From assembly GCA_022494885.1 (NCBI GenBank), contig JAGVSM010003803.1, positions 62,001 through 126,000 on the forward strand: a DNA stretch of 64,000 nucleotides, in the 5' to 3' direction. The position numbers and the translations under genes are program-made. Below the pieces are notes generated by a model, which searched no databases, was not told where the DNA came from, and saw only the letters and a list, made by a program, of their open reading frames with translations. Positions 9,642 through 63,985 of this stretch are shown here, piece after piece. Positions within the stretch are counted from its first letter, which is position 1. The number at the start of each line of letters is the position of its first letter. The DNA comes from Micrasema longulum. Lineage: Eukaryota > Arthropoda > Insecta > Trichoptera > Brachycentridae.

Positions 9642-9850
9642 CAAAAACAAATTACAAGAGAGATGGAGAACATTTTAGAGAAGGGAATATAGAAGTCCAA
9701 GTATTTACAAGGCTTATGACCTGTCATTGGCTAGTTTAAGTGACCACTTTATACACTGTAACATTAACCATTTAGCCTATGTTAAACATCAATATTTCTT
9801 CAATTCTTCCATCCGTTGATTTTAGTGAAGTTAAAGAGCTGAAACTATTA
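9642..9850 (-). mobile_element. Family M, copy 1 (3' half, -)
   Basis: Begins with the inverted tail (ACAAGAGAGATGGAGAACATT) and runs through the diagnostic GGCTTATGACCTGTCATTGG and AAAGAGCTGAAAC blocks. The element is reversed relative to the copy at 19433 and lacks its 5' half. Confidence 0.75.
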
Positions 9851-10139
9851 TTGTTTTATTTTTTTATATGGGAGTTGCTTTATTATTTACCTTGCTTATA
9901 ATATACAAGGTTAATATTTTAAAAAGTTAATTTTTATGCAATTAAATATCTTAAAATTTATCTTAACTGTTGGAATCAGGAGGGATATATTAATGTGGGC
10001 TAATCAGGAACTTCTCAGCATTTGCTCACGTGGAGAGGAGACCACTTAAAACTCTTCAAGAGAAGCCGGCCTGTTGGCAGTAGTCAACTGGTCTTTATTT
10101 AACTTTTATTGTTGCGAAGAGAGTCATCTGTTCGAATTA

Positions 10140-10525
10140 TTTTCCATACTAGGCAACGCCTAAAAACAAATTTCAAATTTTAAAACTTCTTGGACCAGTG
10201 GGTTTAATTACAATATTTTGAGTTTGTGCAAATGTTTGTGGACAAAATACTGGATTCCACCCCCTAGAGAGTCATTAAGATTAACGAATTACAACAGAGA
10301 TGGAAAACATTATTGAGAATTGGAAAATTGTTTTCAGGCGTTGCCCAGTAGGTGAATTAGTTCAGCAGGATGAATCTCACCCACGTGATAAAGGTTTTAG
10401 CTCCATTAGTTCACAAAAGTCAACAGATGGAAGAGTTGAGGAAATGTGGATATTTACACATGGGCAGAATGGTGGATGTTACACAGTGTGTAAAGTGGCC
10501 ACTTAAAGAAGGCCAATGTTGCAAG
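10140..10525 (+). mobile_element. Family M, copy 2, with inverted body segment
   Basis: A minus-sense body piece (CTAGGCAACGCCTAAAAACA) joins the outer segment (AATATTTTGAGTTTG, then CCCCCTAGAGAGTCATTAAG), an inverted tail (TTACAACAGAGATGG) and a plus-sense body (GGCGTTGCCCAGTAGG to GTGTAAAGTGGCCACTTAAA). The palindromic order matches copy 11 at 43689-44203. Confidence 0.75.
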
Positions 10526-10754
10526 AAATAAAGTTTTGATACTGCTTATCTCGATACTAGTAATCTCATCGTTTTTTGTTATCTCTAGTTGCGTATGTAT
10601 GGCATTGATGATTTTAAATCTAATTATCTTTTTTAATGAATGAAAATTGCAACATTATATTTTATTTGTTGCTTTACTGTGAGATAATTAAATTCCTTAT
10701 GTTATAATTGTTTTTTTTTATTTTTTAAATAAAAAATTTGCGTCATTATAAATA

Positions 10755-10898
10755 TTTAATTTTTAGGGCCATTTTCAATGAGTTGTAAATAACTCACTAT
10801 TAGAAAATGGGAATCAAGTTAGGGTAGAGTAGGGTTCGAACCACGGAACTTTGGTCCGTAAGTCCGAGACACTAGCCACAGGACCACAAGCTGATTAT
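10755..10898 (-). mobile_element. tRNA-derived SINE family B, copy 2
   Basis: Contains TAGAGTAGGGTTCGAACC, GAGACACTAGCCACAGGACC and the 3' body GAGTTGTAAATAACTC, matching the other B copies. Confidence 0.75.
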
Positions 10899-11034
10899 GG
10901 TATTTCTGAATTTGAATAAACATTTGTTTTGGGTATTATTTTCATTGCTTTGTGCCGTGGAATTATAATGTTTTTGATGTCTCTTTCATTACTGAAAAAA
11001 GTTTTATTATGCAACAAGCTATGGGGGTTAGCTA

Positions 11035-11090
11035 CATTTGGTACTTAAATTCAGTGCCCTATGCACCAACAGTTCGTATAAGGTGATGAT
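11035..11090 (+). mobile_element. SINE family C tail fragment
   Basis: AGTGCCCTATGCACCAACAG matches the 3' end of family C (compare 20125-20150). The head is absent. Confidence 0.5.
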
Positions 11091-13080
11091 ATATAATGTA
11101 TTTATTTATGTATTCGTTTTCTTTCTTTTACTTTTCCTATTTATTTTGCGTTTGAGAAGTACATTCCATATCTACAGAACCAAATGTACAGTACTCTACA
11201 ATAAATAAACTACTTTAATTGCCAGTCTAATCGGCTAACTTTGGCTTTGCGGAGCTTCGTCTTTGTCCGGACTACTGGACTCGTGCGACAGAAACAACGC
11301 TCTACAAAGTCGGCAGTCTTTTTCTTCAGCCCGATGTACTTTAAGAACTGCCGGGTATCAACTCCAAGTACGTTATCTTTAAATTTTAAAAAAATGCAAT
11401 AATTGTTATTTAATTGTCATTTAAAATTAATCATAAAATAAATTGGCAAAATATACGTCGAAAATATTGTAAAACAAATCTTTTTTGTGTAGGTAATAAT
11501 GGTTGCAAAATTGATTCATTAAAATGATTATCTACTAACTTATCGTCATAATGTTAATCAATTATTTGATTCAAAAGATACCCTGTTATCAATCAAGGCC
11601 GAATGCATGGATATATTAATAAATGGATAGGTACACATGTCTCAAAAACTGTCTTAACTCTTAGGGCTGTGCTACAAAATTCCTTCACACGCAGTGATGT
11701 AAAGTTGTGTTATCACAAGCGAAATATACAATTTGCTGAAGTACAGACATAGAAAAAAATCATCGAGACACACTGTTAAATAATTATTTTTCCATAATTC
11801 AATCAAAAGAGGTCTCTAAATTCAACATTGTCCCCTTTTCAGGACGAAATGGTTCATAAAGCGATTAATTTTTCTACCAGTTAGAGCATTCTTTTGTTTT
11901 ATGATAACATTAATAATAATTGGCTGATTTATATAGCGCCATTTTTGTGAAAAATCGCCTCAAAGGCGCTTTACAATTGTATACTTAAATTTGCATTCTA
12001 ACTAAGCTAAACTGACATATTATATTTTCTGATTTAATATTGAGGGTATAAACTAAAGAAATGAGATGCAAGTTGGGATTTGAACTGACTGAACGGACTG
12101 TCGATTATCTTTATTTATTTATTTAAAATTTTAAGTACAATGGAATAAGTAATTGGTTGGTAAAAACCATATCTTCCAGCCAACCAAAAACAAAACTGTC
12201 TGAAGAAGAGAGAGAAAAACCAAGCTTAATTAATTTTTAAAAAACGCTGTTTTTTAATGGGAAGATAAGGCTCGCACATAAATATTAACTTTTAAAAAAT
12301 ACATTATACCATACATATTAAAGGAAGAATAATGTGGAATCAGATATTGAGTTTGGAAGGAGAGAGAAAGAGGAACCAAGAAAAGAAAAGGGTGAAAATA
12401 TTTATTTTGAAAACCAACAAAATACAGGGAGCAATGTAATAAATTCATACATGTTGTTATAATACGTTTGTCACATTGTATTGTTGTTGACTGTTTGAAG
12501 AGAGTTTAAAATTCCTAAAAAAAAACTAATTTTTAAAAAATAACTCGAACTTTGAAAATAATTTGCAAAGAAATTGCGTATTTTTTTACTGGTTTACTGC
12601 AAGCAAACTTTGTATCGTAAACAAACTGCCCTGTTTGCATTTTTTGAAATTTATCATCCGTGGGAGTTGTTTCAAGTAGGAGCTGTTTCCTGTAAAAGCA
12701 TTTTTTTTAAATATCATTATCATTTTTGGTATGGTAAGTATACGTAAATGTTTTAATAATAATAACAGGAATCGTTTATTTCTGTTTTTTTTATGTAAAA
12801 AAATATATTTATAAGGTTTCAAAAATGTTTGATTTATTTTTAAAGTCTTTTTTACCACTCGCAACCGAAGTTATTTTAAAATAACGATAAATAACTCAAA
12901 ACTTATTTGTCAAAAAAATGATTTCGAAAGTTTTTAAATAACTCCGTAGGTTAGGTAATTATAATTAATTAAAAAAAAAAGTCTTATGAGAAAGGACTTA
13001 ACATATCATTAATTTTTCCAACACATCTCGTAATTATTTCATCCATATTTCATTTGATGAATGAATCATTTACATAATTT
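11091..13080. other. Intergenic DNA upstream of gene 1
   Basis: A segment at 11150-11380 (CTTTGGCTTTGCGGAGCTTC, GTCGGCAGTC) is less AT-rich and may be LTR debris. A possible hairpin lies at 11925-11985. The remainder is AT-rich with no open frame or repeat that I recognise. Confidence 0.4.
11925..11985 (+). repeat. Hairpin with TATAGCGCC and GGCGCTTTA arms
   Basis: GATTTATATAGCGCC (11935-11940 region) is followed after about 20 nt by AAGGCGCTTTACAATTG, which can pair through GCGCC/GGCGC. A degraded tRNA-like box B (TTGGGATTTGAACTGAC) follows at about 12070, suggesting a dispersed short element. Confidence 0.45.
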
Positions 13081-16100: not shown

Positions 16101-17654
16101 GGTTAAAAGACTCTATTTTTTATTAATATCTCTACAGAGATGAGGTAGAATTTTTTCAAATTCAGGATTATGGATATTCGAGCGTTTACAGGGCTTATGA
16201 CCTGTCATTGGCTGGGTTAAGTAGCCACTTTACGTACTACAACATTCCCCATTCCGCTTATTAGCGAATATCGACACAGGTAACATTTTTGATTTTTGTA
16301 TATATGTTATTAAATGAGAAACCATTCACAAGCGTGTTGGAGCGCCATCTATGTATTGATATTGAAGTTAAAAGACTCTACTTTATTTTTTAATAATTGA
16401 TGTAAATAGCATAATTCAGATACAGTGCGTCTATTTTCAAGGGTAAAAAATCCATTTTGTTTGGCAGATTGGCTGTAAGTACAAAGCGTTTTATTGTTAT
16501 TATAATCTGGGTATTTAAAAAAAAATTCGTTGAACATTTTCAATCATTTCTATATATGTATATTATGATATATATGAGACAACTCTGCCTAAAAGAAGCG
16601 TTGATACACTTCTTCTGGTCGAACAATAAGAAGAGATCTCAGTATAATGATCGTACGAGGTTTCCTAGAGCACGAATTATGTCAAACCGAAAACCCGTAT
16701 GACTTTTGATCAGAGACACCTCTCTTCTGTCACACCGAGAGTGTTAAATATTTTAGAAAAGCAAATAAAGCTCTCAAGGATAAAACCTATTTTCAACAGC
16801 GGGGTTGAGGGCTGGATTTTCTTTAGCGGGATGGATTTAAGTAGGAAACTAATTAATGATTTTTCAAATAATCGAGTTTTTTCTTTCATTTTATTTTTTC
16901 ATATAAATCAAATGTTTGTCTTCGTTCTTCCCATATTAATGTTTTTATTATGTTTCTGATTTTGAATATTATTTGTTGTGACATGTTCTTTTAGTTAATT
17001 ATTTGATCCAACTCAACACAGGACTTTGGGTCCATGGAGTTGGAACTTCCGTCTCAAAAAATGTTATATTAATGAAAACTGTGAATCAATAATATTAATA
17101 AAAAAAATATTGCTAAAGAAATGCGATTGGTTTTTTTTATTAATATTTAAGAACTTATTTATTATTTAATATTAGTTTTTCTTGTATCGGTAACACCGAA
17201 CACGCGCCTATGTTCGGAGTAAATTGAAATGTCACAAATTGGAGCGCAAAGTTTACGACTCTTTCTAGAAATTCTTGTAAAAGTCTAAAGTTCCTTGATT
17301 TTATACCATTGGCTCCAGCGGAGTTAGCCACCATTTTTAATTATATTTATACCAGTAATAAATAAAGTAATTAAGTAAATCGTTGTAAAGTTACAGGTCA
17401 TAAAATTAGTAAACTTCAAGAGTTCGAAACAGAAAGATGGCTAAATTATACCGCTCACAATTCAGCAAAATATTTGTTCACAAAGTAGATGTGATCTAAT
17501 GTTTTTTATTGCATTTTTTTAGGTTTGCGACTATCCCAATCACATCCCAGAAGGAGTGTGTACACCACCAGTGGAAAAAACTACAACAGAAAATGTGCAA
17601 ACTACACCACAAGAAGTATCTACAACACCAGTAGATATACTAACAACTCAATAA
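13160..17654 (+). CDS. Gene 1: secreted single-domain chitin-binding (CBM14) protein
   Basis: Predicted three-exon gene of 109 codons: 13160-13166 (ATGAAAG, donor GTAAGA), 15573-15763 (acceptor TTTTTTACAG, donor GTGAGT) and 17523-17654 (acceptor TTTTTTTAG, stop TAA). Phases fit: phase 1 after exon 1 and phase 0 after exon 2. The protein starts MKATFVVSLLFGLALA, a clear signal peptide (1-16). One CBM14 domain follows with all six cysteines at 21, 39, 45, 55, 68 and 79, giving spacings of 17, 5, 9, 12 and 10, and the aromatic signature CSKFYLCF and GLWFNPDIGVCDYP. The last 29 residues are Thr/Pro-rich (TTENVQTTPQEVSTTP), a likely O-glycosylated tail. It should be exported and bind chitin in the peritrophic matrix, cuticle or another extracellular matrix; the tissue cannot be told. 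A possible ATTAAA poly(A) signal lies at 17813. The exons are firm; expression is inferred. Confidence 0.88.
14195..14420 (+). repeat. Degenerate tandem-like repeats in gene 1 intron 1
   Basis: Variants of TTGACATACCATAATTAGCC recur about every 60-70 bases (near 14244, 14300, 14328, 14372). The copies are diverged and no precise period can be set by eye. Confidence 0.4.
14835..14970 (-). mobile_element. tRNA-derived SINE family B, copy 3 (gene 1 intron 1)
   Basis: TAGAGTAGGGTTCGAACCTC, ACACTAGCCGCAGGACCACA and the body TCAACGAGTTTTTACTCAC match other B copies in reverse orientation. Confidence 0.78.
15130..15555 (+). repeat. Repeat family E, copy 1 (gene 1 intron 1)
   Basis: About 400 bp that align along most of their length with 38340-38760: CCTTACGGGAAATTG, TCCAATGATTTGAGGGC, GAAGGATATCCGG, CGTAAACGAACCAATCGGAA, and ACCTCTGACGTCACACGCGG, down to ACACTGAACTTCCTCATT. 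The palindromic octamer TGACGTCA is at 15404-15411. It ends about 20 nt before the exon 2 acceptor of gene 1. Confidence 0.75.
15905..16540 (-). mobile_element. LINE X 3' end, interrupted (gene 1 intron 2)
   Basis: Minus-strand copy of the X element at 29660-30330. The right part (16360-16540) encodes KTLCTYSQSAKQNGFFTLEN and ELCYLHQLLKNKVESF. The left part (15905-16110) encodes the terminal residues and the 3' UTR with the same A/T hairpin. A family M fragment separates them. Confidence 0.8.
16126..16364 (-). mobile_element. Family M copy 3 and flank, inside LINE X
   Basis: Contains the minus-sense M blocks TTACAGGGCTTATGACCTGT and TAAGTAGCCACTTTACG. The insert is bracketed by near-identical copies of GTTAAAAGACTCTATTTT (about 16108 and 16366), which lie at the same codon of LINE X and look like a target duplication. 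Confidence 0.65.
16541..17500. other. Gene 1 intron 2 sequence, no element recognised
   Basis: AT-rich intron sequence. Small open frames on + (16457-16959) have no recognisable domain. Confidence 0.4.
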
Positions 17655-19419: not shown

Positions 19420-19432
19420 TAATGTATAGGTT
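19420..19432 (+). repeat. Target-site duplication, left arm, M copy 4
   Basis: TAATGTATAGGTT, repeated exactly at 19802-19814 on the other side of the element. Confidence 0.8.
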
Positions 19433-19801
19433 AACAATATTTTGAGTTTGTCCAAATTTTTGATAAAACTCAAAATATTGTTGATAAATCCACCTGGTCC
19501 ATGAAGAAGTATAGAAATTGAAAAAATAACATTTTCAGGCGTTGCCTAGTATGTAGGTGAAATAATTATATTAGATGAATCTCACCCGCATAAATAAAGG
19601 TTTCAGCTCTTTAACTTCACAAACATCAACAGATGAAAAAATTGAAGGAAAATAGATGTTCAAATATGGGCAGAATGGTGAATGTTACACAGTGTGTAAA
19701 GTGGCCACTTAAACAAGCCATTGACAGGTCATAAGCCTTGTAGATACCTAGACTTCTATATTACCTTCTCTTAAATGTTCTTAATCTCTTTTGTAATATG
19801 T
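19433..19801 (+). mobile_element. Family M, copy 4 (defines + orientation)
   Basis: Complete short copy between 13-bp target duplications. It starts AACAATATTTTGAGTTTGTC, then an inverted copy of that (AAACTCAAAATATTGTTG), then the body GGCGTTGCCTAGTATG, ATGAATCTCACCC, GGGCAGAATGGTGAATGTTA and GTGTAAAGTGGCCACTTAAA, and ends CTCTTTTGTAATATG. No coding frame. Confidence 0.85.
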
Positions 19802-19904
19802 TAATGTATAGGTTCTAACATGAAAAAAATAAATCATTTTTATAATATACAATTCTGTTTATTGAAGAAAAAACGTGTGTTCAACATTATTCATGTTTTT
19901 TGCT

Positions 19905-20170
19905 GTCGGCCTCGTGGTGTAATGATCAGCGCGTTTTTCTACCATGCAAGAGGTCTCGGGCTCGATTCCCGACATGGTTGATATGAAATATCAAATAAAA
20001 ATGGTGTCTTTGTACTAAAATATTTCATAGCCCCTGGACTGACGACACCTGAAGCGTAAGACTGATCATCTTACCTTCATGTAACAAAAATGATCGAAAT
20101 ACGCTGCGATTGGTGTTATAATACAGTGCCCTATGCACCATTAGGTGCGGAAAGGGAATAATAATGATAA
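19905..20170 (+). mobile_element. tRNA-derived SINE family C, copy 2
   Basis: Sense copy. Box A region GGCCTCGTGGTGTAATGATC, box B CTCGATTCCCGACATGG, body CCCTGGACTGACGACACC and AGACTGATCATCTTACC, then the 3' end GCCCTATGCACCATTAGGTG and an AAT microsatellite (20155-20182). Confidence 0.82.
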
Positions 20171-20560
20171 TAATAATAATCATAGTTTATTAACAAAATA
20201 ACAATTACTTTATCTACTACACACACACTTAGGTAATAGATTTCTCTGGATCATGTCTAGTCTGCCTAACTAGGTACAACCTGTTTTAAGGCAGACATTT
20301 TTGTGCAAAAATAAACTTTAATATTACTATCTACTAGTTGATTTACTATACAGTTATACAATATTAATTTTTACCATTTATTTTTTACGAATGTATTTTG
20401 AGTAAATTTTTCGATTTTTCTCGACCTAAACCCAGGAACCAATTTTTTTCAATTGTTTAAATTGAATCCAGGTCACGGTTTTACAATGTTGATAATGATG
20501 AAAATGATGTTGTTGGATTTATTTAAATAAAAAATGATCATCTTTAAACATATGTATATT

Positions 20561-20873
20561 AACAATAGTTTGAGTTTGTCCAAATTTTTGTAGACGAGGA
20601 CTGTATTTAACTCCCCGGGGAGCTGTTTATATTATTATATTACGACAGAGATAAAGAACATTTAAGAGAAGGTAATATAGTAGTCTAGGCATATACTGGG
20701 CTTTGTAAGAATTGAACGAATATAAATGTTCAAATATGGGCAGAATGGTGAATGTTACACAGTGTGTAAAGTGGCCACTTAAACCAGCCATTGACAGGTC
20801 ATAAGCCCTGTAGATGCCTAGAATTCTATATTACCTTCTCTTTAATATTCTTCATCTCTGTTGTAATATGTTA
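20561..20873 (+). mobile_element. Family M, copy 5
   Basis: Flanked by the direct repeat ATATGTATATT (20550-20560 and 20874-20884). It starts AACAATAGTTTGAG and contains long inverted arms: CAGAGATAAAGAACATTTAA with GTCTAGGCAT on the left, and the complement at the right end (ATGCCTAGAATTC to CTGTTGTAATATG). Confidence 0.8.
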
Positions 20874-21385
20874 ATATGTATATTATGCTAATATAAAATG
20901 GTTACAGCTATCAATACATTTTTAATTATTATTGAAACTACATAAAAAAGTTGAGACACATAACACCATAAAAAAAATAAGAATAATAACTTTAATTGAA
21001 TAATTCACTTGTTTATTTTTTATAAAAGGGTCATTTTTATGCAATTGGAAAAATAATATTTACAAAATAAGAAGTATTTTAAAAAATAACCTTAATGTTA
21101 GAGCGTACTTCTTTAAAATATTTTTTAAATAATAATATTCGAACTCACATTGAATATGTGTAATATTTTAAGAATCAAAATAATTTAATTTATGCATTGT
21201 CTGGCAGCAGTCTTGCTTAGTAGCCTCTTCAATTGGATACAGTTAAATTAAAATTATTCTTGAAGGCAGCTTTCCTTTTGGAGAATTTATATGTTCATAA
21301 TAATGAGCATTTAGTAAATATATTTAATCTACTGTTATTTAATTCCACTGTTTCTGAAGTTGATTGGTATAAATCAAGTACCTAG

Positions 21386-29064: not shown

Positions 29065-29560
29065 GAATAGTATATTTATTTATTTATTTATATACGGCAT
29101 TTCTGCCATTTACATATATGTGGTATAAAGAATGCTTAAAAATAAAAATATTAAAAAAACGAGTATGAAATATTAATATACTCGTACTGTACACATTATT
29201 AACTTCTTGAAATACATATATATTTTAAAGAAATTATACAATAACAATATACATTAATCAATCAAATTATAACTATTCCAACCCAATCTTCTGAAAATGA
29301 TTTGCTCTTTTTGACAAAAATATGTTGGTCACTTTATTTTTTAAGTTAGGCAGAGATAAACTAAATTAATCAAAATGTGATGCGTATTCATTCCCGGTAT
29401 TCTGTAATCTAACAATAGGTGAGTTATATTGAGCTACCGTTCGAGAATTTTGACAATAAAATATTGTAGATGTTCTGCTTAATCTAGGTGGTACATAGAA
29501 TGAAATCAATTTCAGTAGATCAGGGGTATCAGAATATGGAAGTTTACGCATTTACAGGGC
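29065..29560 (-). mobile_element. LINE W-like C-terminus and 3' UTR
   Basis: The minus strand encodes DLLKLISFYVPPRLSRTSTI then SPIVRLQNTGNEYASHFD, the tail of a Jockey/CR1-like ORF2 (compare SIGFYVPGKYLRQRQ in the 49.7-kb copy). The 3' UTR ends in an AAATAAAT tail at 29066-29090. Confidence 0.7.
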
Positions 29561-29670
29561 TTATAACCTGTCATTGACTGGTTTAAGTGGCCACTTTACA
29601 CACTGTGTAACATTCACTATTCTGCCTAAATTTAAACATCCGCGTTTCCTCAACTCTTTATACAACACTT
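29535..29670 (-). mobile_element. Family M, copy 6 (partial)
   Basis: TTACAGGGCTTATAACCTGT, TAAGTGGCCACTTTACACAC and CATTCACTATTCTGCC. It joins the minus LINE on its left to LINE X on its right. Confidence 0.75.
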
Positions 29671-30330
29671 TTGTACGCATTAATTTGGAGTTTGCATCCG
29701 TTGTGTGGAGCCCACAATACATAACAAACATAGAAAGGATTGAAAATGTTAAACAAAAAAATTTAAAATACCTAGATTATAAAAACAATAAAACGCTTTG
29801 TACTTACAGCCAATCTGCCAAACAAAATGGATTTTTTACCCTTGAAAATAGACGCTCTGGATCTGAATTATGCTATTTACATAAATTATTAAATAATAAA
29901 GTAGACTCTTTTAACCGACTCTCCGAAATTCCCTTTCGCATGACAATAAATAAGTATTTATTCCATCTGCCAGTCTGTGGCACTAACTATGCACAACACT
30001 CTTTCCTATATCGTTCTTGCTCTAACTAAAATGCTTTTTTTTCATCTATTGATATATTTTGCACGCCCCTTAATTTATTTAAAAATAAATTAAGACTCAT
30101 TATTTCTGGTTCCGATACGATCCCACTTACTATTTGATGATGCTCACACTTACACACACTTACACACACCTGAACACTTACTCTCACACTAATACTCATA
30201 AACACACATCTACACTTACTCTTATACAAATACACATAAACACACCCTTTTATTGTAACATAATTTAATAATATGTATGATTCTTGTTTAGAAACTTCGC
30301 TGGTCTGTCTTTAAACCGTATTAAAAAAAA
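29660..30330 (+). mobile_element. LINE X, 3' end with intact C-terminal frame
   Basis: The frame to 30029 encodes LYNTFVRINLEFASVVWSPQ, ITNIERIENVKQKNLKYLDY, KTLCTYSQSAKQNGFFTLEN and LHKLLNNKVDSFNRLSEIPF, the C-terminal region of a Jockey-like ORF2. The 3' UTR (30030-30330) contains the A/T hairpin, a CA-rich stretch and the CTTCGCTGGTCTGTC block. Other X copies are at 6371-6605 and 15905-16540, both inverted. Confidence 0.82.
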
Positions 30331-30364
30331 ATATTATTACATCATTGTCGACTGTTTGTTTCTT

Positions 30365-30725
30365 TAAATTAAATAAACTCTTCCATCTGTTGACTTTTGT
30401 GAAGTAAAAGAGCTAAACCCTTTATCACGTGGGTGAGATTCATCCCGCTGAACCAATTCACCCACTCGGCAACGCCTGAAAACAATTTTCCCATTTTTAT
30501 ACTTCTTCTTTGACCAGGTAGTTAATTCAACAATGTTTTGAGTATGTCCAAATGCTTGCAAACTGGCTGGATTTCTTCCCTAGAGAGTTATTCATATTTA
30601 AATTTGTTGCAACAGAGTGGCCACTTAAACCAGCCAACGACAGGTGATAAGCCCTGTAAACGCCTAGACTTCCATATTCCTTTCTCAAAAATGTTTTCCC
30701 TCTTTGTTGCAATAAGTTTAAATGT
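30365..30725. mobile_element. Family M, copy 7 (inverted pair)
   Basis: 30365-30525 is minus-sense body (CCATCTGTTGACTTTTGTG to GGCAACGCCTGAAAAC). At 30530 it joins a short plus-sense copy starting CAACAATGTTTTGAGTATGT with tail TTTGTTGCAATAAGTTT. The outer segment contains TTCCCTAGAGAGTTATTC. This tail-to-head palindromic order repeats in copies 2, 11 and 15. Confidence 0.75.
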
Positions 30726-31679: not shown

Positions 31680-32885
31680 TTTTTTTTTTATTTTTTTATT
31701 TTTTTTTATTTTATTTTTTATTTATTAATAAAACATATAAGACATGAATATCATGATATTATATTCCTAGGAGTTGTACGAGAAAACTCATTTGGGACGG
31801 TACATAAAAAAAATAGTACATTTCTTGTAACAATACATAGTATACATTTAAACAATAAAAATTTTAACAAATTTTAACAATCTATGAACTTAATATTAAA
31901 AAAGGAAAGAAAACATTTAAACAATCTGTGAACTTAATATTAAAGAAGAAAATAAAAACATTCAAACAATCTGTGAACTTAATATTAAAAAAGAAAAGAA
32001 AAACATTTAAACATTCTGTGAAATTAATATTAAAAAAGAAAATAAAAACATTTAAACATTCTGTGAACTTAATATTAAAAAAAGAAAAGAAAAACATTTA
32101 AACCTAAAACACAATATATAGACTATTCACAGAAAATTGAGCTAAAAACTATCACTTTGAAAAAGATTCAAGAAATAGGTCTTCATTTCTGGTCTTTGAG
32201 ATTTACCACTCGACATTTCATTTTTAAGGTCATCAGGCAGTTTATTAAATTGTATACGACCAATGTATTCCAGAGACCTTTTGCCGAACTTCGTGGAACA
32301 AAATTTAGAAATGTGAAGATTTTTTGCATGTCGTGTATTATAGTTGTGAATTTCATGATTAAATGTAAGTTTTAAATTTGTGTGAGCAGAAAAGTTTATG
32401 ATGTTTGAAATAGTGTTAGTGATGTCATACAGTGCCATTACCTTGAAAGGAAGTATTTTTGTGTTACGATAAATATCCTTGACATGGGAATCCCATTTCA
32501 AACCAAGAATGCTTCTCAGAGCTCGGTTTTGAAGAACTTGAATCTCAGAAATCTGGTTTTTGTTAGCGAAACCCCAAATACAGCATAAATAGGATAGGTG
32601 AGAATGTATCATAGCGTAATAGACGGCAAACAAAACAGAGTGAGGAAGCAGACCACGAAGTCTATGCAAAACGCCAGTTACGGGTACTATTTTTGATTTA
32701 ACATGTTCATATTGGTATTTCCATGAAAGTTAACATATAGTCCTAAGTATTTAGTAACATTGGTCTTTTCAATATAGCCAGTTCCTAGAGAAATATTAAT
32801 TTTCAAATCCTGTTTGTTCCCAAAAATCATATTTGATGTTTTTTTCATATTCAAACTTAATTTGTTTAATCGCATCCTCATTCAT
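31680..32885 (-). mobile_element. LINE Z, longer copy
   Basis: Minus-strand ORF2 C-terminus. 32687-32881 encodes LNKLSLNMKKTSNMIFGNKQ and VTKYLGLYVNFHG; after a frame change near 32680, 32142-32669 encodes MHSHLSYLCCIWG-like AMIHSHLSYLCCIWGFANKN, EIQVLQNRALRSILGL, ALYDITNTISNI, YNTRHAKNLHISKF and QFNKLPDDLKNEM. The 3' UTR has the 45-bp array (31870-32105) and ends in a long AAATAAAA tail at 31680-31730. The final 630 bp are nearly identical to copy 1. Confidence 0.85.
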
Positions 32886-41308: not shown

Positions 41309-41739
41309 AAAAAGTCGGTAAGTGGGTATATACTAATATTTGCTAATATTAGATAATATTTAATCACCGAGTAACATTTATTACCCTGCCAATGCTTGAA
41401 CATCCAAATTTGTTCAACTATTCCGTCTGCTGATTTTTGTGGACTAAAATCAGTTCAGACTTTTGCTCCACGTTCATCTTACCGTTACGTAATAAGTATT
41501 ATCCAAACAACCTGAAGTTAGAGTACCCTATGAAATTGTGATGATGAAATCATGAGACTTTATAACATATTTAAAAGGAACGGCTTAAATATTTAATTAA
41601 ACACGGTCCGAGAACCATAATGGTTATCGAGAAATGAATATTTTTTTTTTTGAATAACGTGCCTTATTATAAACATATTATATCACGAATGGAAGGAATA
41701 CTATGAAAATCTAAACTTTCTGGGTATTTACAGGACTTA

Positions 41740-42320
41740 TGAACTGTCAACAGTAAACAGGAAGAAATCAGGAGAAGAATAATGGCTGCCAACCGTTGCT
41801 ACTACACGCATCAAAAAAAATTACTCCAAATTAGTACGAAATAATACTAAAATAATACTGTACAAAACTCTGATTAAACCTATCCTTACTATGCCTTTAA
41901 ACCTGAGCAAAGAGTATTTAGAAAGTTATTGCAGCTTTCGAAAGAAGAATCCTCAGAGTTATCTATGGCCCTGTGAGAGAAAGTAGCCATTGGCGTCGTC
42001 GCTACAATAGAGAGCCATACGATATTTACCGAGCGTTCAATGTAATCAACTCCATCAAGGTGGGACGTTTGAGGTGGGCTGGCCATATAATTAGAATGGA
42101 CGACGAAAACCCCATAAAACGCCCAACTCTCTCTGTGCCACAAGGACGACGAAGACCAGAAAGACCCAAAATGCGATAGATGGACTGCATCAGTGCAGAT
42201 ATGGCAATGTTGGAAGGGAGGAACTGGAGAGGAAGAGCAGCAGACCGGCAAGAGTGGAGGAGACTCCTGGATTCAGCCAAGGCCCACCTAGGGCTGTCGA
42301 GCTTATTATGATGATGATGA
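41740..42320 (+). mobile_element. Non-LTR polymerase C-terminus
   Basis: Encodes NEEIRRRIMAANRCYYTHQK, then ESSHWRRRYNREPYDIYRAF, KVGRLRWAGHIIRMDDENPI and RNWRGRAADRQEWRRLLDSA, ending in an ATGATGATG run. Several stops. Confidence 0.78.
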
Positions 42321-43525: not shown

Positions 43526-43687
43526 TTTCTTTCATGATATACACAAATACTCAATAAATAACAGCTTTTTTATTTTTTTTTATTTCTTCAATGTAGGTAT
43601 AATTTACACGTTTATTGAAAAGAACACAAAGAGATAGTCAGGTTTCAATAAATAACTACACATTCTAAAAACATCAAACAAATTAAC

Positions 43688-44204
43688 ATATTATAACAGA
43701 GATAAAAAACATTTAAGAGAAGGTAATATAGACGTCTAGGCATCTACAAGGCTTATGACCTGTCAATGGCTGGTTTAAGTGGCCACTTTACACACTTTGT
43801 AACATTCACCATTCTGCCCATATTTGAACATCTTTATTCCTTCAATTCTTTCATCCGTTGATGTTTGTGAAGTTAAAGAGTTGAAACCTTTATTTATGCT
43901 AGTGAGATTCATCTAATTGAATTATTTCACCTACATACTAGGCAACGCCTAAAAAAGTTATATTTTCAATTTCTGTACTTCTCCATGGACTAGGTGGATT
44001 TATCAACAATATTTTGAGTTTGTCCAAACTTTTGTAGACATGGACTGGATTCAACTCCCTGGGGAGCTGTTTATATTTAGTTCTCTTAAATGTTTTTCAT
44101 CTCTGTTGTAATATGTTAATATAAACAGCTCCCCAGGGAGTTGAATTCAGGATTTGTATACAACAATTTGGACAAACTCAAAATATTGTTGATCAAACAA
44201 ATTA
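43688..44204 (-). mobile_element. Family M, copy 11 (full length)
   Basis: Longest copy. Read on minus: AACAATATTTTGAGTTTGTC, an outer segment with CTCCCTGGGGAGCTGTTTAT, an inverted tail (TTAACATATTACAACAGAG, ATTTAAGAGAA), an inverted outer segment, then body and tail. Direct repeats ATCAAACAAATTAACA flank it (43672-43687 and about 44205-44220); at least 10 bases of these are target, the rest could be element end. Confidence 0.82.
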
Positions 44205-44765
44205 ACACAAATAAAATAATATTTTCAGTTCCATATACTGCTATCTTCCATGTACTCATTTAATCTATGTTTGTTTCATTTAGTCCATGTAATTAAGTAC
44301 ATGTTTGTTTGGAAGAAATCGCCATTCGGATATAAGTCCGCCAAACTGTTGATAGCTAATTTTTATTTAAATTTAAGATATTTCGTAAATTAAATTGGTT
44401 TTCCTCGTATTTTTCCATCCAAAATAAAACAAATGTTGAATAAGAAATTCAACCATGAACGAAACAATGCATAAACATGTTACCAAACACATATTGATCA
44501 TTGTGATCGGATGCTAATTACAAATTGAAATTACTTTTATTTATTGCGAGGAAACAAAAGGAAACGTGGTTGTCTTTCCCAGTCACTTGGTAAAATTGTC
44601 AATATAAACTATACCGTACGAAAGAGATGGAGCATTTTGCAAAACAATTCGGTGTGCCCTTGGTCGTTTTTCTTGTACGTCAAATTTGATAGTCTTGACA
44701 GAGAGAACCTCTATCTCCAGTATTTTGAGTTAGTCCAAATATTTTTTTTCAATATAGGTTTAAAT

Positions 44766-55300: not shown

Positions 55301-56408
55301 AAGAATTTTCACTTACAAACTTAAATGTTTTAGATGTATAAAACTGTTAAAAAAATCGAAAACGGTTTTATCAATTCAACCGAATTAAGTGTTTTGGGTA
55401 ATGGCTTAAGGTCAGAAAAATGTTTAAAATAATAATCATCATTACAATATTTGAGTTTGACCAAATGTTCATAGACAAAAGACCGGATTTCACCCCCTAG
55501 GGAGTCATTAAGATTAACAAATTACAACAGGGATGGAGAATACCTTAAATAAGGGAATATGAAAGTCTAGGCATTTACAGGGTACATTGAACTCCTTAAT
55601 AAAGATACCAGCCTCGAAGATGTCGCGAAAGCGATGAAACCGGTCACTGGATATTTCAAATTTGTGGATTAAAGTATCACTCGTCTTTTATTTATATAAT
55701 AAAAAGTTTTATCCATCATTTGACGTTTAATCATTAGTGTGGTCATTATTACATTAAAAATTCCAAATTAAACACTCCCTAGAGGGTTGATAAGATTCAG
55801 AATACCACTCCAGGCTTAGTTACAAACTAACCCTAAAAAAGGCAGAGTATTTTTCCGAAACCAGTTGGTTATTAAATCGTTAAAAAATAAAGTGGTACGT
55901 CCAAAAAACCAAAATTATTTCATCGCAATACATAATTTTTTCACAAAGTTAATGCTTCAAATATCGAAAATATCTACTAGATTTCCTAATTTAGGGTTTT
56001 TACACGAGAGCAGACATTGAGTTATAAACCCTAGTCCAGGGTTATAAATTTATTTAACACACAGAACTGTATTCTTCATCCGCCTGGACATAGTGAATAA
56101 GCAAACCATTTGCAAATGTTTTAAATTTTAAATAAATTTCTAGTGGAGATTTTAAAATTAAATAATGGCATAATAAGTACAGAGATGTGAATATATTAAT
56201 AATTTAGTAGGAGCAACGTAAGATTTATAATATAGAACACACTTTTAAGGTGTATTGGTAATATGATCATTAAGCTTTATATTTTATTTAATATGAAACA
56301 AAATGCTACTTTGTAAACCTATAGTAATACAATTTAATAAAAGATATAAGTACGTATATCAACTTTTTTTTATACTCAAGAAATTATATTTACATACATA
56401 CCTTTCAT
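52376..56408 (-). CDS. Gene 4: secreted single-domain chitin-binding (CBM14) protein
   Basis: Predicted three-exon minus-strand gene, 105 codons: exon 1 56402-56408 (ATGAAAG, donor GTATGT), exon 2 53182-53396 (acceptor TTTTTTTTGAAG, donor GTAAGT), exon 3 52376-52471 (acceptor TTTTTAG, stop TAG). Phases are 1 and 0. The protein starts MKAVIVLFSLVSLVFAA, a signal peptide. CBM14 cysteines lie at 29, 47, 53, 63, 76 and 87 with the cluster spacing of 17, 5, 9, 12 and 10, and with CSTFYVCED and GLWFNPLVG-VCDWPANVPEG. A Pro/Gly-rich loop (PPPGPGG) separates Cys1 and Cys2. The tail is Thr-rich (VSTTTLEPDTTTTTD). It should be exported and bind chitin in an extracellular matrix. Exon 2 is distinctly GC-richer than its surroundings and than the sister exons. 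Exon 1 is 3 kb upstream but fits phase, Met-Lys-Ala start and a nearby TATA box. Confidence 0.85.
52620..52700 (+). repeat. Repeat family E fragment (gene 4 intron 2)
   Basis: GGAAGCTCAGTGCCACGGGA and AACAATGTTTTCCTACACGC resemble the first part of family E copies 1 and 2. The CRE-like part is missing. Confidence 0.5.
53610..53700 (+). mobile_element. hAT-type terminal sequence (gene 4 intron 1)
   Basis: TTGCAAACCGCGGCCCGCGA then GCCGCATGCGGCTTTTTAGC is the recognisable terminus of a widespread hAT group. The following 150 bases contain a few in-frame residues (MDPKKELLQLLMFG) but no transposase that I can confirm. Confidence 0.5.
54700..55197 (-). pseudogene. PLE copy 2: GIY-YIG endonuclease end
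   Basis: Minus-strand PLE fragment. It reads CYVGQTGRAFKTRIKEKIQS, LIENKHSFDLKKYVKI, IAPKGHKFNKLEILEIN and ends near HSPLLYPLYY. A short insertion resembling a LINE tail (AACCCTTACGG) lies at 55085-55165. The conserved His after KTRIKE is Lys here. This copy retains the A-run that is one base short in copy 1. Confidence 0.8.
55198..55335 (+). repeat. Inverted 3' tail plus outer segment of PLE copy 2
   Basis: GCGATGAAACCGGTCACTGG, CCAAATTTGTGGGTTAAAGT and then AATGAACTTTCATCAAGAAT to GTTTTAGAT. The order (outer segment, inverted tail, body) is exactly that of copy 1 at 2650-2747. Both independent copies share the 46-bp outer segment. Confidence 0.8.
55440..55590 (+). mobile_element. Family M, copy 12 (5' part)
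   Basis: CAATATTTGAGTTTGACC, CCCCCTAGGGAGTCATTAAG, AACAAATTACAACAGGGATG and GGCATTTACAGGG. A PLE tail begins directly after it. Confidence 0.7.
55590..55705 (+). mobile_element. PLE 3' tail, solitary, with hammerhead-like fold
   Basis: ACCAGCCTCGAAGATGTCGC, GAAAGCGATGAAACCGG, TCACTGGATATTTC and TATCACTCGTCTTTTATTTA match 5011-5105. The fold is at 55608-55650: stem I CCAG/CTGG, stem II GTCGC-GAAA-GCGAT and the GAAACCGGTC core, with the same non-canonical 5' core as copy 1. Confidence 0.75.
56025..56095 (+). repeat. Repeat family F, copy 3 (gene 4 intron 1)
   Basis: AGTCCAGGGTTATAAATTTA, ACAGAACTGTATTCTTCATC and CGCCTGGAC resemble copies 1 and 2, diverged. Confidence 0.4.
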
Positions 56409-57103: not shown

Positions 57104-57116
57104 ATAAATAGAAGTT
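57104..57116 (+). repeat. Target-site duplication, left arm, M copy 13
   Basis: ATAAATAGAAGTT, repeated exactly at 57371-57383. The paralogous empty site is in repeat H copy 1. Confidence 0.85.
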
Positions 57117-57370
57117 CAACAATGTTTGATTATGTCCAAATGCTTGCAGACTGGCTGGATTTCCTCCCTAGGGAGTTGTTCGTATTTAAATTTATTTCAA
57201 CAGAGAGGGAGAGGGAGTGGATGTTCAAACATGGGCAGAATGGTGAATGTTACACAGTGTGTAAAGTGGCCACTTAAACCAGCCAATGACAGGTCATAAG
57301 CCCTGTAAATGCCTAGACTTCCATATTCCCTTCTCGAAAACTTTTTCCCTCTCTGTTGAAATAAATTTAA
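57117..57370 (+). mobile_element. Family M, copy 13 (complete short form)
   Basis: CAACAATGTTTGATTATGTC, CTCCCTAGGGAGTTGTTCGT, inverted tail (ATTTATTTCAACAGAGAGGG), a shortened body (GGGCAGAATGGTGAATGTTA to CCTAGACTTCC) and tail TCCCTCTCTGTTGAAATAAA. It is 254 bp between perfect 13-bp direct repeats. Confidence 0.87.
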
Positions 57371-57800
57371 ATAAATAGAAGTTGTTTAAAAATTTAATTA
57401 AAGTTAAAAAATGAAGAAACTTTGTAAAAGTAATTGTAAGTTAAAAATTAAAATAAAGAATGAAAAACATGCTCAGATGAAAAAATAAAATAAATTAATA
57501 ATAACATTTTTTTAAAAAGGGAAAACATAAATATACACAAACATATTTTAAGGGATTTAAAGAAACGACGAGACGAATCTTTAAATATGAAAATAAATTT
57601 AAGTCAAGTTAAAAACGTTTTCAAAATTAATGACACATTATAGTATTAACAGCAATATATTGATTTTACATACATTTACAATATAAGTAATAGAAAGTAG
57701 TTTAAAGGTATAAAAATATGTCAATGGAGAAGAGAAAAAAGAAAAAATAACAGGTATAGCAAGTAATATTTAAAATTTGAAAAAGCAATACAAGAAGATT

Positions 57801-60390: not shown

Positions 60391-60717
60391 ATACAATATA
60401 TTTTTTGATACAATATAATATAAAAAAATATTAATACAACATAATATAAAAAAATATTAATACAGTATAACTTTTAAGAGCCCACATTATAACTTTATTC
60501 CTTCTGGCTGGAAAAGATAGGGAAAGGAAATTAAAGGCAGAAACTTTTAATTTAATGAAATAAAAGATTTTGGAGATAAATCTCTAAGTAATTTAACGTG
60601 TTTGATTGAAAGATTTAAGTAGATACGACGACAATCAAATCAGAAAATCTCATTTAAAATGTTGTATTATAGCGCAAGTCATTTAAAATTGATATTTAAA
60701 CAAATACAGCCGTATCT

Positions 60718-60752
60718 CCACAGTCATTATCGTTAACTCTTGTGTGGCTGTG
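60718..60752 (+). repeat. Direct repeat with internal inverted arms, left copy
   Basis: CCACAGTC followed by TTAACTCTTGTGTGGCTGTG. It recurs at 61488-61536 as CCACAGTC and TTAACTCTTGTGTGACTGTG. Confidence 0.6.
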
Positions 60753-61487: not shown

Positions 61488-61536
61488 CCACAGTCCACCT
61501 ATTGAGTGTTACTTTTTAACTCTTGTGTGACTGTGG
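61488..61536 (+). repeat. Direct repeat with internal inverted arms, right copy
   Basis: See the left copy. CCACAGTC and GACTGTGG are complementary, so each repeat can form a hairpin. Confidence 0.6.
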
Positions 61537-61680
61537 TGGAATTCGAGTTACACCACAAGACTAGATAGTAATATTTCTCTATTGTTTATCTGTGAAAAAT
61601 ATTCTTATACCTAGAAAGTTAGATAAGAACAATGTAAATTAATCGATTGATTTTTAAGCGATAAGTAAGTGCATTAATAT

Positions 61681-61800
61681 AACATATTACAACAGAGATG
61701 AAAAACACTTTACATACTGTGTAACATTAACAATTTAGCCCATATGTGAACATCTATATTCCTTCGATTCTTCCATCTATTGATGTTTGTCTTCACATCA
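61681..61800 (-). mobile_element. Family M, copy 14 (partial)
   Basis: AACATATTACAACAGAGATG, ACATACTGTGTAACATTAAC and TTCTTCCATCTATTGATGTT. It has an internal deletion that joins the tail to the ACACTGTGTAACATT block. Its last bases are followed by an inverted CATCAATAGATGGAAG. Confidence 0.7.
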
Positions 61801-61869
61801 ATAGATGGAAGATCAACAGATCGTCATCATAATTCCATGTCGGCTCCCTAGTTTAATTTTTTTTTTTTT

Positions 61870-61978
61870 TTTAATGAGACTTGCGCTGGAAAAATGGAAA
61901 CTGAGTTGTCGTAGCGTAGGAACTGAACCTTTAATCCGTGAGTCCACAATACTACAACGGTACCACAATCCGGTTCTT
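61870..61978 (-). mobile_element. tRNA-derived SINE family B, copy 4
   Basis: GCTGGAAAAATGGAAACTGA, GTAGGAACTGAACCTTTAAT and CACAATCCGG match B copy 1 best. A T-run of 15 precedes it. Confidence 0.65.
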
Positions 61979-61989
61979 TGTTGGAGCAT

Positions 61990-62290
61990 TTGGTGTCCAT
62001 AGAGAGCCTCCATGCATCTCTATCAGCTGCTATGCGATCTCCTGAGTCAGGTTCGCGTCTCGAAATTCCGGCATAATCTTCCAACGGACAGCCAACGGTG
62101 GACGTCCAGGACGTCGAGAACCTGATACTTGAAGTAGGAAGCGTGGTTAAGGCTTTAAGGTGGCATTGTTTGTTAATAGTAACATATGGTAAACACGCTC
62201 CATCGATTAGATCATGTGAGATATGGTTTTGATATTTTAAACGTGGTGATTTCAATGTGAAAGACATTGCTCGCTCTGGTAGATCACAAA
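61990..62290 (-). mobile_element. LINE C-terminal end, decayed
   Basis: The minus strand shows GISRREPDSGDRIAADRDAW then RLSMDTK, resembling the closing AQDRxxWR motif of RTE-like LINEs, with frame breaks upstream. Confidence 0.55.
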
Positions 62291-62299
62291 TGTGCGAAA

Positions 62300-62400
62300 A
62301 CAAGCAATTGCAGACGTTACTGGGTGATGACCCTAATCAAACTCAACAGCAATTGGCAAATGAGGAAATGAACTCTTGCTGAACATATGATTAATTTGAA
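62300..62400 (+). pseudogene. Mariner transposase middle fragment
   Basis: KQLQTLLGDDPNQTQQQLAN and EEMNSC correspond to the second helix-turn-helix region of mariner transposases (pattern LLxEDxxQTQEQLA). Confidence 0.65.
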
Positions 62401-62404
62401 TCGG

Positions 62405-62550
62405 GTTAGGTCCCGTGACTAGTGTTGCGGACTAACGGATCAGAGGTCCGAGGTTCGAACCCTACTCTACCCCAACTTGATTTCCATTTTCCAAGAGTGG
62501 GTTATTTGTAACTCGTTGAAAACGGCCTCAAAAATTTAAATATTTTGGTA
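62405..62550 (+). mobile_element. tRNA-derived SINE family B, copy 5 (sense)
   Basis: GTCCCGTGACTAGTGTTGCG, GGTCCGAGGTTCGAACCCTA (box B) and ACCCCAACTTGATTTCC, ending GTAACTCGTTGAAAACGG. This is the only copy in sense orientation. Confidence 0.82.
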
Positions 62551-62573
62551 TTTCAGGGTGCCTGAATGAATGA

Positions 62574-63005
62574 CTAGACAGGTGCCACCGTTTTGTAGCA
62601 CCAGATGTTCAATTTGGACAAATTATGGGACAAAATGTTACAATCGTTTTTGTTTTTTATTTCTTTGAATATTTTCATATCATATGCAAATATGAGAACA
62701 TGTACATTATCAAATATATCAATTACATCATTTATAAATATTAAAAACAACACTGGACCAAGATGCGAGCCTTGAGGTACTCCACTAACTGATTTAAATT
62801 TATATGATACTATATCATTTATTTTCACTGACAGGTTTCTATCGAACAAATATGTTTTAAACCAATTTAGTACCTTTAATTCCAGATCGTTCTAATTTGT
62901 TAATTAGAATTTTATCTTTTACTTTGTCGATAGCCTTGCTAAAATCTGTGTAAATAGAATCGATTTGGGTTTTTTTGGATAGTGCATCAGATATAATATT
63001 TTAGT
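62574..63005 (-). mobile_element. Non-LTR reverse transcriptase core fragment
   Basis: The minus strand encodes DSIYTDFSKAIDKVKDKI (motif A), SGVPQGSHLGPVLFLIFIND (motif B region) and VLIFAYDMKIFKEIKN (motif C). The catalytic FADD reads FAYD, so one aspartate is lost. It lacks both ends of ORF2. Confidence 0.85.
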
Positions 63006-63149
63006 ATGGTATGTAGTATTATAAATGTTTGTAAAAGGCAGATTTACCGTTTATGTTAATAAAATAAAATAAATAAATAAATAAAATTAATCATAAGAAC
63101 GCAAATATTTTTTTTCTTAAAAATTATAATTCAAATAACGCATTGATCA

Positions 63150-63478
63150 AAAGACGACCGGAACACATGGCAAAGTGGTTTTGTTACACGACAATGCGCT
63201 GTCTCACACAGCAAAGCCAGTGAAAGACACCTTATCGCTTGGATGGGACATCCCTCCGCACCCGCCATATTCTCCCGACCCGGCGCCATCTGACTATCAG
63301 CTCTTCGCATCAATGGGGCACGCGCTCGCAGAGCAGCACTTCAGCAATTTCAAGGAAGTTGGAAAATGGCTCGACAAATGATTTGCTGCAAAAGACCAAC
63401 AGTTTTTGGGGCATAGTGTTTATAACTTACCTGGATGGGCTAAGTGTGTAGAAACCGATGGCCAATATTTTGACTAAA
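63150..63478 (+). pseudogene. Mariner transposase C-terminal catalytic fragment
   Basis: VVLLHDNALSHTAKPVKDTL holds the second catalytic Asp; PHPPYSPDPAPSDYQLFASM contains the conserved YSPDLAPSDYHLF motif with the third Asp; FAAKDQQFLGHSVYNLPGWA and ETDGQYFD form the end. A TGA replaces the Trp codon after WLDK at 63379-63381, which truncates the frame. Confidence 0.85.
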
Positions 63479-63544
63479 CAAAAATAAATTTCCCTTGAAA
63501 ATTAAGTATTTTCTTTTCCACGAAAACCGCAAAAACTTATGAAT

Positions 63545-63985
63545 ACACCTAATTTATTGCTTCAATTCTTCTATCTGGTGATGTTTGTGAAGTAAAAGAG
63601 CTGAAACCTTCATTGACGTGGGTGAGATTCATCTGATTGAAAATGTTCCACCCACATACTAGGCAACGCCGGAAAATATTTACACAGTGTGTAAAGTGAC
63701 TACTTAACCCAGCCAATGACAAGTCATAAGCCAGACTTCTATATTCCTTTCTCTAAAATGTTCTCCATTTCGCCTGGCGGCCTCCGTGGCGTGGTGGTCA
63801 AGACGCTTGACTCACACACGAAAGGTTCCGGGTTCAATTCCCGAAGAGAACACAAAAATTAAAATGTGATTTTTCTCAAGCCTGGGTGTTCTGTGATGTA
63901 ATTCACCACTGTAATTGGGCTTCCTGGCCTTTTGTGGGGCAAAAATAAATAATGAAATCTCTGTTGTAATATGTTAACACACAAG
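63545..63985. mobile_element. Family M, copy 15 (inverted pair) split by a SINE
   Basis: 63553-63665 is minus-sense body (GTGATGTTTGTGAAGTAAAA to GGCAACGCC). At 63672 it joins plus-sense GTGTAAAGTGACTACTTAAC and the tail TTTCTCTAAAATGTTCTCCA. The tail end TCTCTGTTGTAATATGTTAA reappears at 63958-63978 after SINE D copy 2. Confidence 0.75.
63777..63955 (+). mobile_element. tRNA-derived SINE family D, copy 2 (inside family M)
   Basis: Box A region GGCCTCCGTGGCGTGGTGGT, box B GGGTTCAATTCCCGAAG, body AAGCCTGGGTGTTCTGTGAT and an end GGGGCAAAAATAAATAATG. It inserted in the tail of M copy 15. Confidence 0.82.

Follow-up and report, generated by a model that had tools for sequence, protein, structure and literature searches.

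A short non-autonomous element of Micrasema longulum with Penelope-type ends and a predicted twister ribozyme

Introduction

Penelope-like elements (PLEs) of the GIY-YIG type and the metazoan retrozymes without long terminal repeats (non-LTR retrozymes) are the described systems closest to M, a short repeated element in a stretch of 64,000 nucleotides (nt) from Micrasema longulum (Trichoptera, Brachycentridae; assembly GCA_022494885.1, contig JAGVSM010003803.1, positions 62,001–126,000, forward strand), the whole of which is referred to here as the window. A purified PLE cuts and extends both DNA strands, prefers A+T-rich DNA, and begins reverse transcription at internal sites which lack homology to the target and do not visibly differ between the two strands (Frangieh et al. 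2024, PMC11167929). The stretch between two start sites is the Penelope "tail", and the ribozyme lies at the junction of the pseudo-LTR (pLTR) and the open reading frame (ORF) (PMC11167929). The portion of the 2013 Adineta paper drawn on here (PMC3846280) describes inverted pLTRs, an optional 31-bp extension, target-site duplications (TSDs) of 8–10 bp and palindromes at the pLTR start. The PLE mechanism is poorly understood, and the reason why these elements keep hammerhead ribozymes is open.

M has two-site ends, a recurrent tail–head junction, TSDs, and a twister motif with covariation and kept core letters. It is probably a non-autonomous Penelope-type retroelement whose RNA carries a type-P5 twister, a twister analogue of the animal retrozymes. 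We also lean towards the more specific view of M as a retrozyme built on a twister, possibly the first of its kind to be described, whose circular or tandem RNA is copied by a Penelope reverse transcriptase from two internal starts on both target strands. Literature searches over titles and abstract openings returned no twister in a Penelope or retrozyme element among the matches listed; the full texts of several of these, e.g. PMC4918200, PMC9695139 and PMC7936874, contain both words.

M resembles GIY-YIG PLEs (PMC11167929; PMC3846280 in part) in its inverted 5′ piece, pLTR-like tail–head junction, optional end extension, variable 5′ truncation, A+T-rich targets, palindrome near the unit start and TSDs (8–10 bp in the part of PMC3846280 cited, 13 bp in PLE1, the canonical PLE of the window), as well as in a self-cleaving ribozyme near the junction, which in M is predicted. 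It differs from them in coding for no protein, in having a predicted twister where theirs is a hammerhead, in an extension of about 75 nt as against 30–40 nt, and in a sequence unrelated to that of PLE1. With metazoan non-LTR retrozymes, as described in a section of PMC7229834, M shares a size within 170–400 nt, an A+T-rich composition, the absence of an ORF, tandem units, one ribozyme per unit (predicted in M) and TSDs longer than 4 bp; theirs, however, is a type I hammerhead whereas that of M is a predicted twister, and M, in the 40 genome loci examined, mostly comprises between one and two and a half units. Twister-like ribozymes of RTE long interspersed nuclear elements (LINEs), mentioned as in preparation in a passage of a review (PMC7761336), are alike in that a twister occurs in an animal retroelement, but those are said to be truncated and located at the RTE 5′ end, whereas M lacks an ORF and has Penelope-type ends.

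Material analysed

The window is A+T-rich (GC content 0.32), and the assembly comprises 584 Mb in 5184 contigs. Self-comparison of the window confirmed M, and with the direct unit of copy D as reference 11 clear loci and three weak fragments (31.4, 40.2 and 44.7 kb) were counted, which falls short of the about 15 copies of the original prediction made from the window's letters. Unit positions u1–u398 are those of the direct unit of window copy D, which serves as the coordinate reference, while the unit period is approximately 393 nt. The genome sample consists of the 40 loci (L001 and following) which match copy D best among 9803 first-look candidates, all scored places being examined; L001 is copy D itself. 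An unselected 50-kb genome stretch holds just 1.2 kb of M, below the content of the window. The unit contains no stop-free frame of more than 46 codons, in agreement with the ORF-less element originally described, and simple patterns for RNA polymerase III boxes found none in it. Exact M patterns had no match in the collections of viral contigs and genome contigs searched.

Unit anatomy and tail–head junction

The M unit continues into itself, the unit end ...TGTAATATGTTAA being followed by the unit start TATAAACAGCTCC..., and the tail–head junction reads ATGTTAA/TATAAACAG. In 28 of the first 30 loci, 37 junctions share one unit position, and 23 of these are letter-for-letter identical. Junctions in the main (direct) orientation number 30, in 24 of the 40 loci, and one locus (L036) has three complete unit copies in a row; the joined units abut, with no duplication between them. 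The 40 loci mostly contain between one and two and a half units, and an inverted head is frequent. The window copies B, C and D and the composite J55, among others, carry the junction inverted, so that the "outer segment plus inverted tail" of these copies is the reverse complement of tail–head. As the junction occurs in both direct and inverted pieces, the template therefore held head-to-tail units, either as a multimeric transcript or as a circle.

In all five copies having both, the inverted tail matches the tail of its own copy at least as well as the other tails compared (best in four, tied in B), with small score margins, as is expected if both come from one RNA; in copy C, 28 nt of the inverted tail are identical to the copy's own tail. 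The termini of M share a short TTAACA-like similarity and the head contains palindromes, while no simple-repeat or poly(A) tail was seen at the 3′ end of M.

Ends and target duplications

The 3′ terminus of M falls at u393–398 in 31 of the 40 genome loci and at u72–83 in the other nine, with no other position used. Inverted 5′ pieces are present in 31 loci, where the outer end lies at u73–83 in 24, at u393 or beyond in four, and elsewhere in three (L008 at u92, L030 at u68 and L031 at u212). The remaining nine loci start with a direct piece, most of them 5′-truncated, and the inner breakpoints differ widely among the loci. The inverted piece takes in the tail end of the unit in 24 of the 40 loci, mostly across the tail–head junction. 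Ends fixed at two unit positions in both orientations are the Penelope signature, i.e. two internal starts of reverse transcription on both target strands.

Four window copies (A–D) have clear TSDs. Copy A (19433–19804, plus strand) comprises an inverted head (u76–47) and direct u47–398 between copies of TAATGTATAGGTT (13 bp; 19420–19432 and 19802–19814); copy B (20560–20874, plus) comprises inverted u80–4/398–327 and direct u228–398, with ATATGTATATTA (12 bp; 20550–20561 and 20874–20885); copy C (57116–57369, plus) comprises inverted u78–2 with an inverted tail and a direct piece from about u242, with ATAAATAGAAGTT (13 bp; 57104–57116 and 57371–57383); and copy D (43683–44194, minus) comprises inverted u82–4/398–348 and a full direct unit u1–398, with ATCAAACAAATTAACA (43672–43687 and 44192–44207), which measures 15 bp in narrower search ranges and 16 bp in two further analyses. 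The 13-bp repeats originally reported for A and C were thus found again, the repeat of B exists but is 12 rather than 11 bp long, and that of D has the reported length of up to 16 bp with its right-hand copy starting at 44192 instead of 44205. Likewise, the order of outer head, inverted tail, body and tail, once ascribed to every complete copy, is seen in B, C and D but not in A, which has the head palindrome only and no inverted tail.

Controls were the longest strings shared by 6000 random pairs in the same layout. The TSDs of A–D (12–16 bp) exceed the longest control match (11), and TSDs of at least 9 bp were identified in 22 of the 40 genome loci as against 69 of 6000 controls. These span 9–16 bp, so that the non-uniform length expected from an earlier range of 10–16 bp is borne out, but a mode exists (12 bp, in 10 of the 22). 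L023 was left out of the count, its TSD being 13 bp by eye and 7 by script. In our reading, part of the length spread arises from chance, or from overlap with the TTAA ends by microhomology. The 19 TSDs in the first 30 loci are richer in A+T than these loci themselves (197/233 = 0.845 vs 0.684), and 5′ truncation is variable among the genome loci; both had been proposed as checks of a Penelope-type origin. A fixed 8-bp TSD with TTAA termini, as in hAT-like elements, suits A and B but fails for C by eye and was rejected. The TSDs of two different M loci (L013 and L014) open with the same ten letters, TATTCTCCTT, which may reflect a target repeat common to both or a preference for certain targets.

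Predicted twister ribozyme

M is predicted to carry a type-P5 twister, which the original prediction had not noticed, with the cut placed between u304 and u305, 94 nt upstream of the unit end. Its predicted location is 19664–19752 in A (plus strand, predicted cut U19710/A19711), 20734–20822 in B (plus, predicted cut 20780/20781), 57229–57317 in C (plus, predicted cut 57275/57276), 43735–43823 in D (minus, predicted cut 43777/43776) and 16177–16263 in the diverged copy G16 (minus), while decayed versions are found in the left part of E (29543–29631, minus) and in F (9696–9781, minus), where the L1 letter G17 is changed. All tested features are intact in B, C, D and G16, bar one P5 pair in G16, which keeps P2, T1, P1, P4 and four of the five P5 pairs despite several both-side changes.

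The motif shares with the type-P5 twister model RF02684 the stems P2, P4 and P5, the contacts T1 and T2, the UAA cleavage loop and the GUNNNAAGCC L4 loop, but differs from it in T1 (AUG:CAU in M, GgG/CcC in the consensus), in an insert of 4–6 nt before P1 and in scores below gathering. In the solved twister fold, for which parts of PMC5408937 and PMC6154101 were used, T1 links L1 to L4 by three Watson-Crick pairs, and T2 joins the L2 GC to two L4 letters (PMC5408937). M agrees with this fold in P2 (UGGU:ACCA), T1 (AUG:CAU, the Rfam letters being replaced on both sides by matching letters), T2 (L2 GC:L4 GC), P4 with the extra, invariant G–C pair, and the U and A of L4. With G–U counted as a pair, T1 (3/3), T2 (2/2), P4 (5/5) and P1 (6/6) are kept in all seven window copies, and P2 (4/4) in five of the seven. 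P1, separated from T1 by 4–6 nt, has two both-side changes; next to it, the UA at the predicted cut (columns 47/48) is present in seven of seven copies, and the 13 tested core letters are unchanged in five.

The seven window copies contain five pairs altered on both sides, G16 contributing most of them (a value reached by 2 of 500 shuffles). Across 63 distinct copies, such changes affect 14 of the 19 pairs of P1, P2, P4 and P5 in 26 cells (0 of 500 shuffles; slid controls 4–7 pairs), in an alignment which was fitted to the twister model and so leans towards it. A fold descriptor, written after M had been seen, has five hits in the window, each in an M copy, whereas 150 shuffled windows gave no hit. 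The model built from the seven copies has matches in all 30 sources scanned (the window and L002–L030); among the 55 distinct copies with at most six gaps (62 of the 69 model matches), the core is unchanged in 36, and core, P2, T1, P4 and T2 are all intact in 23, leaving 32 not fully intact. This pattern fits a motif which was intact at first and has since decayed neutrally.

Scanned singly as short stretches, C, G16, B and the genome copy L016 (just these four) match RF02684 at 22.0–22.9 bits (22.9 for C, 22.7 for G16 and 22.0 for B; E 0.005–0.014), while the Rfam scan of the whole window contains no twister at the gathering threshold. Taken by itself, the Rfam match would be weak support for a twister; the agreement with the solved fold, the matching replacement of the T1 letters and the covariation strengthen it. 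Neither the Rfam scan of the window nor that of copy C reported a hammerhead. The ends of the old fragments K41 (41359–41750, minus; order u315–396 then u190–294) bracket the predicted cut. A reading of K41 as a permuted monomer of one unit length, terminating at the cut, was rejected, since the middle aligns to the unit no better than chance (791 of 2000 shuffles). At 40165–40224 (minus), a possible third M-like subfamily keeps mainly the P4–L4 part.

Proposed mechanism and alternative explanations

Tandem or partly tandem genomic copies would be transcribed, and the twister would cut this RNA once per unit (u304/u305) into monomers of approximately 393 nt, the ends of which would be suited to ligation into circles, as proposed for retrozymes in part of PMC7229834. 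A Penelope-type reverse transcriptase/GIY-YIG protein supplied in trans would then cut A+T-rich DNA on both strands with a stagger of about 12 nt, and reverse transcription would proceed on each strand from either S1 (u398, the tail–head junction) or S2 (u73–83). The opposed complementary DNAs (cDNAs) would run for variable lengths and join mid-way, yielding an inverted 5′ piece and a 5′-truncated or tandem direct piece. The two start sites and the joining of opposed cDNAs are read from the structures of the copies, whereas we infer that the RNA is cleaved and circularised, that circles serve as template, and which enzyme acts. The approximately 75 nt between S1 and S2 are the counterpart of the Penelope "tail", usable at either end; the corresponding extension in PLE1 is 47 nt long. 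A run-off on cleaved RNA was also considered as the origin of the inverted pieces and rejected: those of B, C, D, E, F, J55 and PLE1 in the window do end downstream of the predicted cut, as a run-off would, but 8 of the 24 genome loci whose inverted piece includes the tail end span it.

Several points weigh against a working twister in a Penelope-type element. The four RF02684 scores are all under the gathering cut-off of 37.6, the whole-window scan reports C alone (E 1.8), and the 4–6-nt insert at the joint of L1 and P1 is absent from the Rfam consensus. The single-sequence fold optimum is −20.4 vs −11.6 for the twister stems without pseudoknots; RNAalifold pairs columns 13–16 with 54–57 in place of P2, while recovering P1, P4 and P5; and a hairpin at columns 22–36, competing with P1, has two both-side changes too. 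Inverted pieces cross u304/305 in 8 of the 40 loci (L014, L016, L019, L020, L024, L028, L033 and L037), and since these pieces and every intact direct twister span the cut, uncut or re-joined RNA was copied, which argues against obligate cutting. The hammerhead of the published PLE is dispensable for insertion in vitro (PMC11167929). As for the Penelope affiliation, 18 of the 40 loci lack a duplication of 9 bp or more, the 40 loci are non-random, having been picked as the best matches to copy D, so that D-like structures are over-represented, and the best local score between M and PLE1 (17) is reached by 579 of 2000 shuffles, i.e. there is no alignable similarity. The twister could accordingly be a fossil or a chance resemblance in a non-autonomous Penelope-type M without ribozyme function, a view to which the sub-threshold scores, the insert at the P1 base, the competing energy-based folds, the 32 of 55 copies not fully intact and the dispensability of the ribozyme in the best-studied PLE all lend weight. 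The changes on both sides of pairs in P1, P2, P4 and P5, which are seen among the copies and also in the diverged G16, together with the kept pseudoknot letters and L4 loop and the swap of the Rfam T1 letters for matching pairs, speak against it, and we regard this view as unlikely.

Movement of M by a LINE, e.g. an RTE-type element with a twister, would make the inverted pieces a product of ordinary twin priming. In LINEs, too, the extent of 5′ truncation and the length of the TSD vary and inverted 5′ pieces occur. Twister-like ribozymes at RTE 5′ ends are moreover announced as work in preparation in the review passage already cited (PMC7761336). In 28 of 31 loci, however, the inverted cDNA begins at one of the fixed unit positions, where twin priming predicts no fixed start, and in 24 of 40 it includes the tail end, mostly across the tail–head junction, which is impossible for twin priming on a linear monomer; the twister, in addition, lies near the 3′ and not the 5′ end of the unit, and the 3′ end has none of the simple-repeat or poly(A) tails looked for. 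A LINE is therefore a rather improbable agent. A foldback or MITE-like (miniature inverted-repeat transposable element) DNA transposon with long imperfect inverted repeats would account for the inverted head at one end, the TTAACA-like similarity of the termini and the head palindromes, but not for TSDs varying from 9 to 16 bp, a terminus alternating at either end between two sites 75 nt apart, inner breakpoints which vary between copies, direct tandems with one common junction, or the nine loci starting with a direct and mostly 5′-truncated piece. Such a transposon is very improbable, and the genome data fit the Penelope type far better, as the original prediction had anticipated in ranking foldback as the poorer alternative. 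Its proposal of a non-autonomous M moved by a Penelope-type polymerase is supported by the two-site ends, the junction, the variable 5′ truncation, the cluster of TSDs at 12 bp and the A+T-rich targets.

If M is indeed a twister-based retrozyme copied in this way, it would show that a self-cleaving ribozyme at the pLTR junction, whatever its class, is tolerated or even required in Penelope-type mobilisation. An abundant passenger with an unrelated class of ribozyme at the corresponding position would serve as a separate experiment of nature, suggesting that self-cleavage itself is what is kept. The 9803 candidate places would provide thousands of natural insertion products from which start sites, the length of the stagger and the joining of cDNAs could be read, for a mechanism whose first demonstration was in vitro, with a single purified full-length enzyme (PMC11167929). 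If its RNA is circular, M would add the twister to the ribozymes which make circular RNAs from animal retroelements.

PLE1 and its relation to M

PLE1 (2650–5106, plus strand) consists of a 47-nt outer head, an inverted tail, a 5′-truncated body and a tail, flanked by a 13-bp TSD (TTAAAAATAAATC); both this duplication and the architecture shared with M confirm what had been noted earlier. Its Penelope ORF (2727–4466) matches PLE proteins, where the named ones among the best 120 of 1681 come from insects such as Phthorimaea, Parnassius, Diabrotica, Schistocerca and Cacopsylla. A sequence shared by M and PLE1 was looked for and rejected, as local similarity is not above that of shuffles, and the similarity of M to the second PLE copy is reached by 1339 of 2000 shuffles. 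M and PLE1 agree in 10 of 11 letters at about equal distances from their 5′ termini (50 of 20000 shuffles), a weak match which was looked for after it had been sighted.

The PLE tail contains, at 5012–5054 and 55608–55650, what we take to be a hammerhead-like motif (CCAGU, CUCGAAGA, a stem II with a GAAA loop, GAAAC, GUC and ACUGG, in this order), read by eye against the hammerhead core letters; the Rfam scans of the window and of PLE1 reported no hammerhead in the tail. This motif would cut PLE1 approximately 57 nt before its end, and from the two cut positions (94 nt in M) the predicted twister would thus sit where PLEs carry the hammerhead.

In the composite J55 (55443–55703), an inverted head and tail of M (u75–4/398–330) are joined to the last 121 bp of a PLE, and the M side and the PLE side each end at the canonical terminus. 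Its TSD is unconvincing (7 bp; 379 of 6000 controls). J55 could be a template switch between M and PLE RNAs, or a nested insertion followed by deletion.

PLE1 interrupts a minus-strand gag-like frame (2329–2700 and 5073–5510), the two sides of which seem by eye to continue one protein across the 13-bp TSD; the frame is presumably BEL/Pao-like. Another PLE family, only distantly related (28% identity to PLE1, E 4e-6), is represented by a fragment beside the M insertion of L007, at 1204–1452 on the minus strand.

Other M copies and repeats in the window

G16 (16126–16369, minus; aligned unit part 16182–16272) represents a diverged subfamily and lies inside a LINE copy. Its flanks repeat GTTAAAAGACTCTA (14 bp, with both flanks aligned to another LINE copy), while the script with the ends chosen first gave a longest match of 8 (98 of 6000 controls); a second copy of the host LINE (29840–29945) is without such an insert. 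Copy F (9646–10518) comprises direct u360–398/4–396 on the minus strand and a long inverted piece from u111, and is interrupted near 9860–10100. Copy E (29533–30724), into which a LINE is inserted (about 29660–30360), retains unit pieces u230–356, u2–250 and u294–396. Copy I63 (63553–63977, plus) contains inverted u248–126 and direct u279–398, with an insert in its tail resembling a tRNA-derived short interspersed nuclear element (SINE), and in the fragment H61 (61680–61822, minus) an internal deletion takes out the twister core. No clear TSD was found in E, F, I63 or H61.

An inverted pair of approximately 640 bp (1423–2061 and 31695–32335) is 98% identical (two arms 99–100%), contains a 45-bp tandem repeat, and is more alike than the M copies are among themselves. 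SINE-like repeats derived from tRNA were recognised by eye at 8929–9028, 19905–20178, 39710–39809 and 63775–63955, one of them being the insert in the I63 tail, and Rfam gives a tRNA match at 9104–9176.

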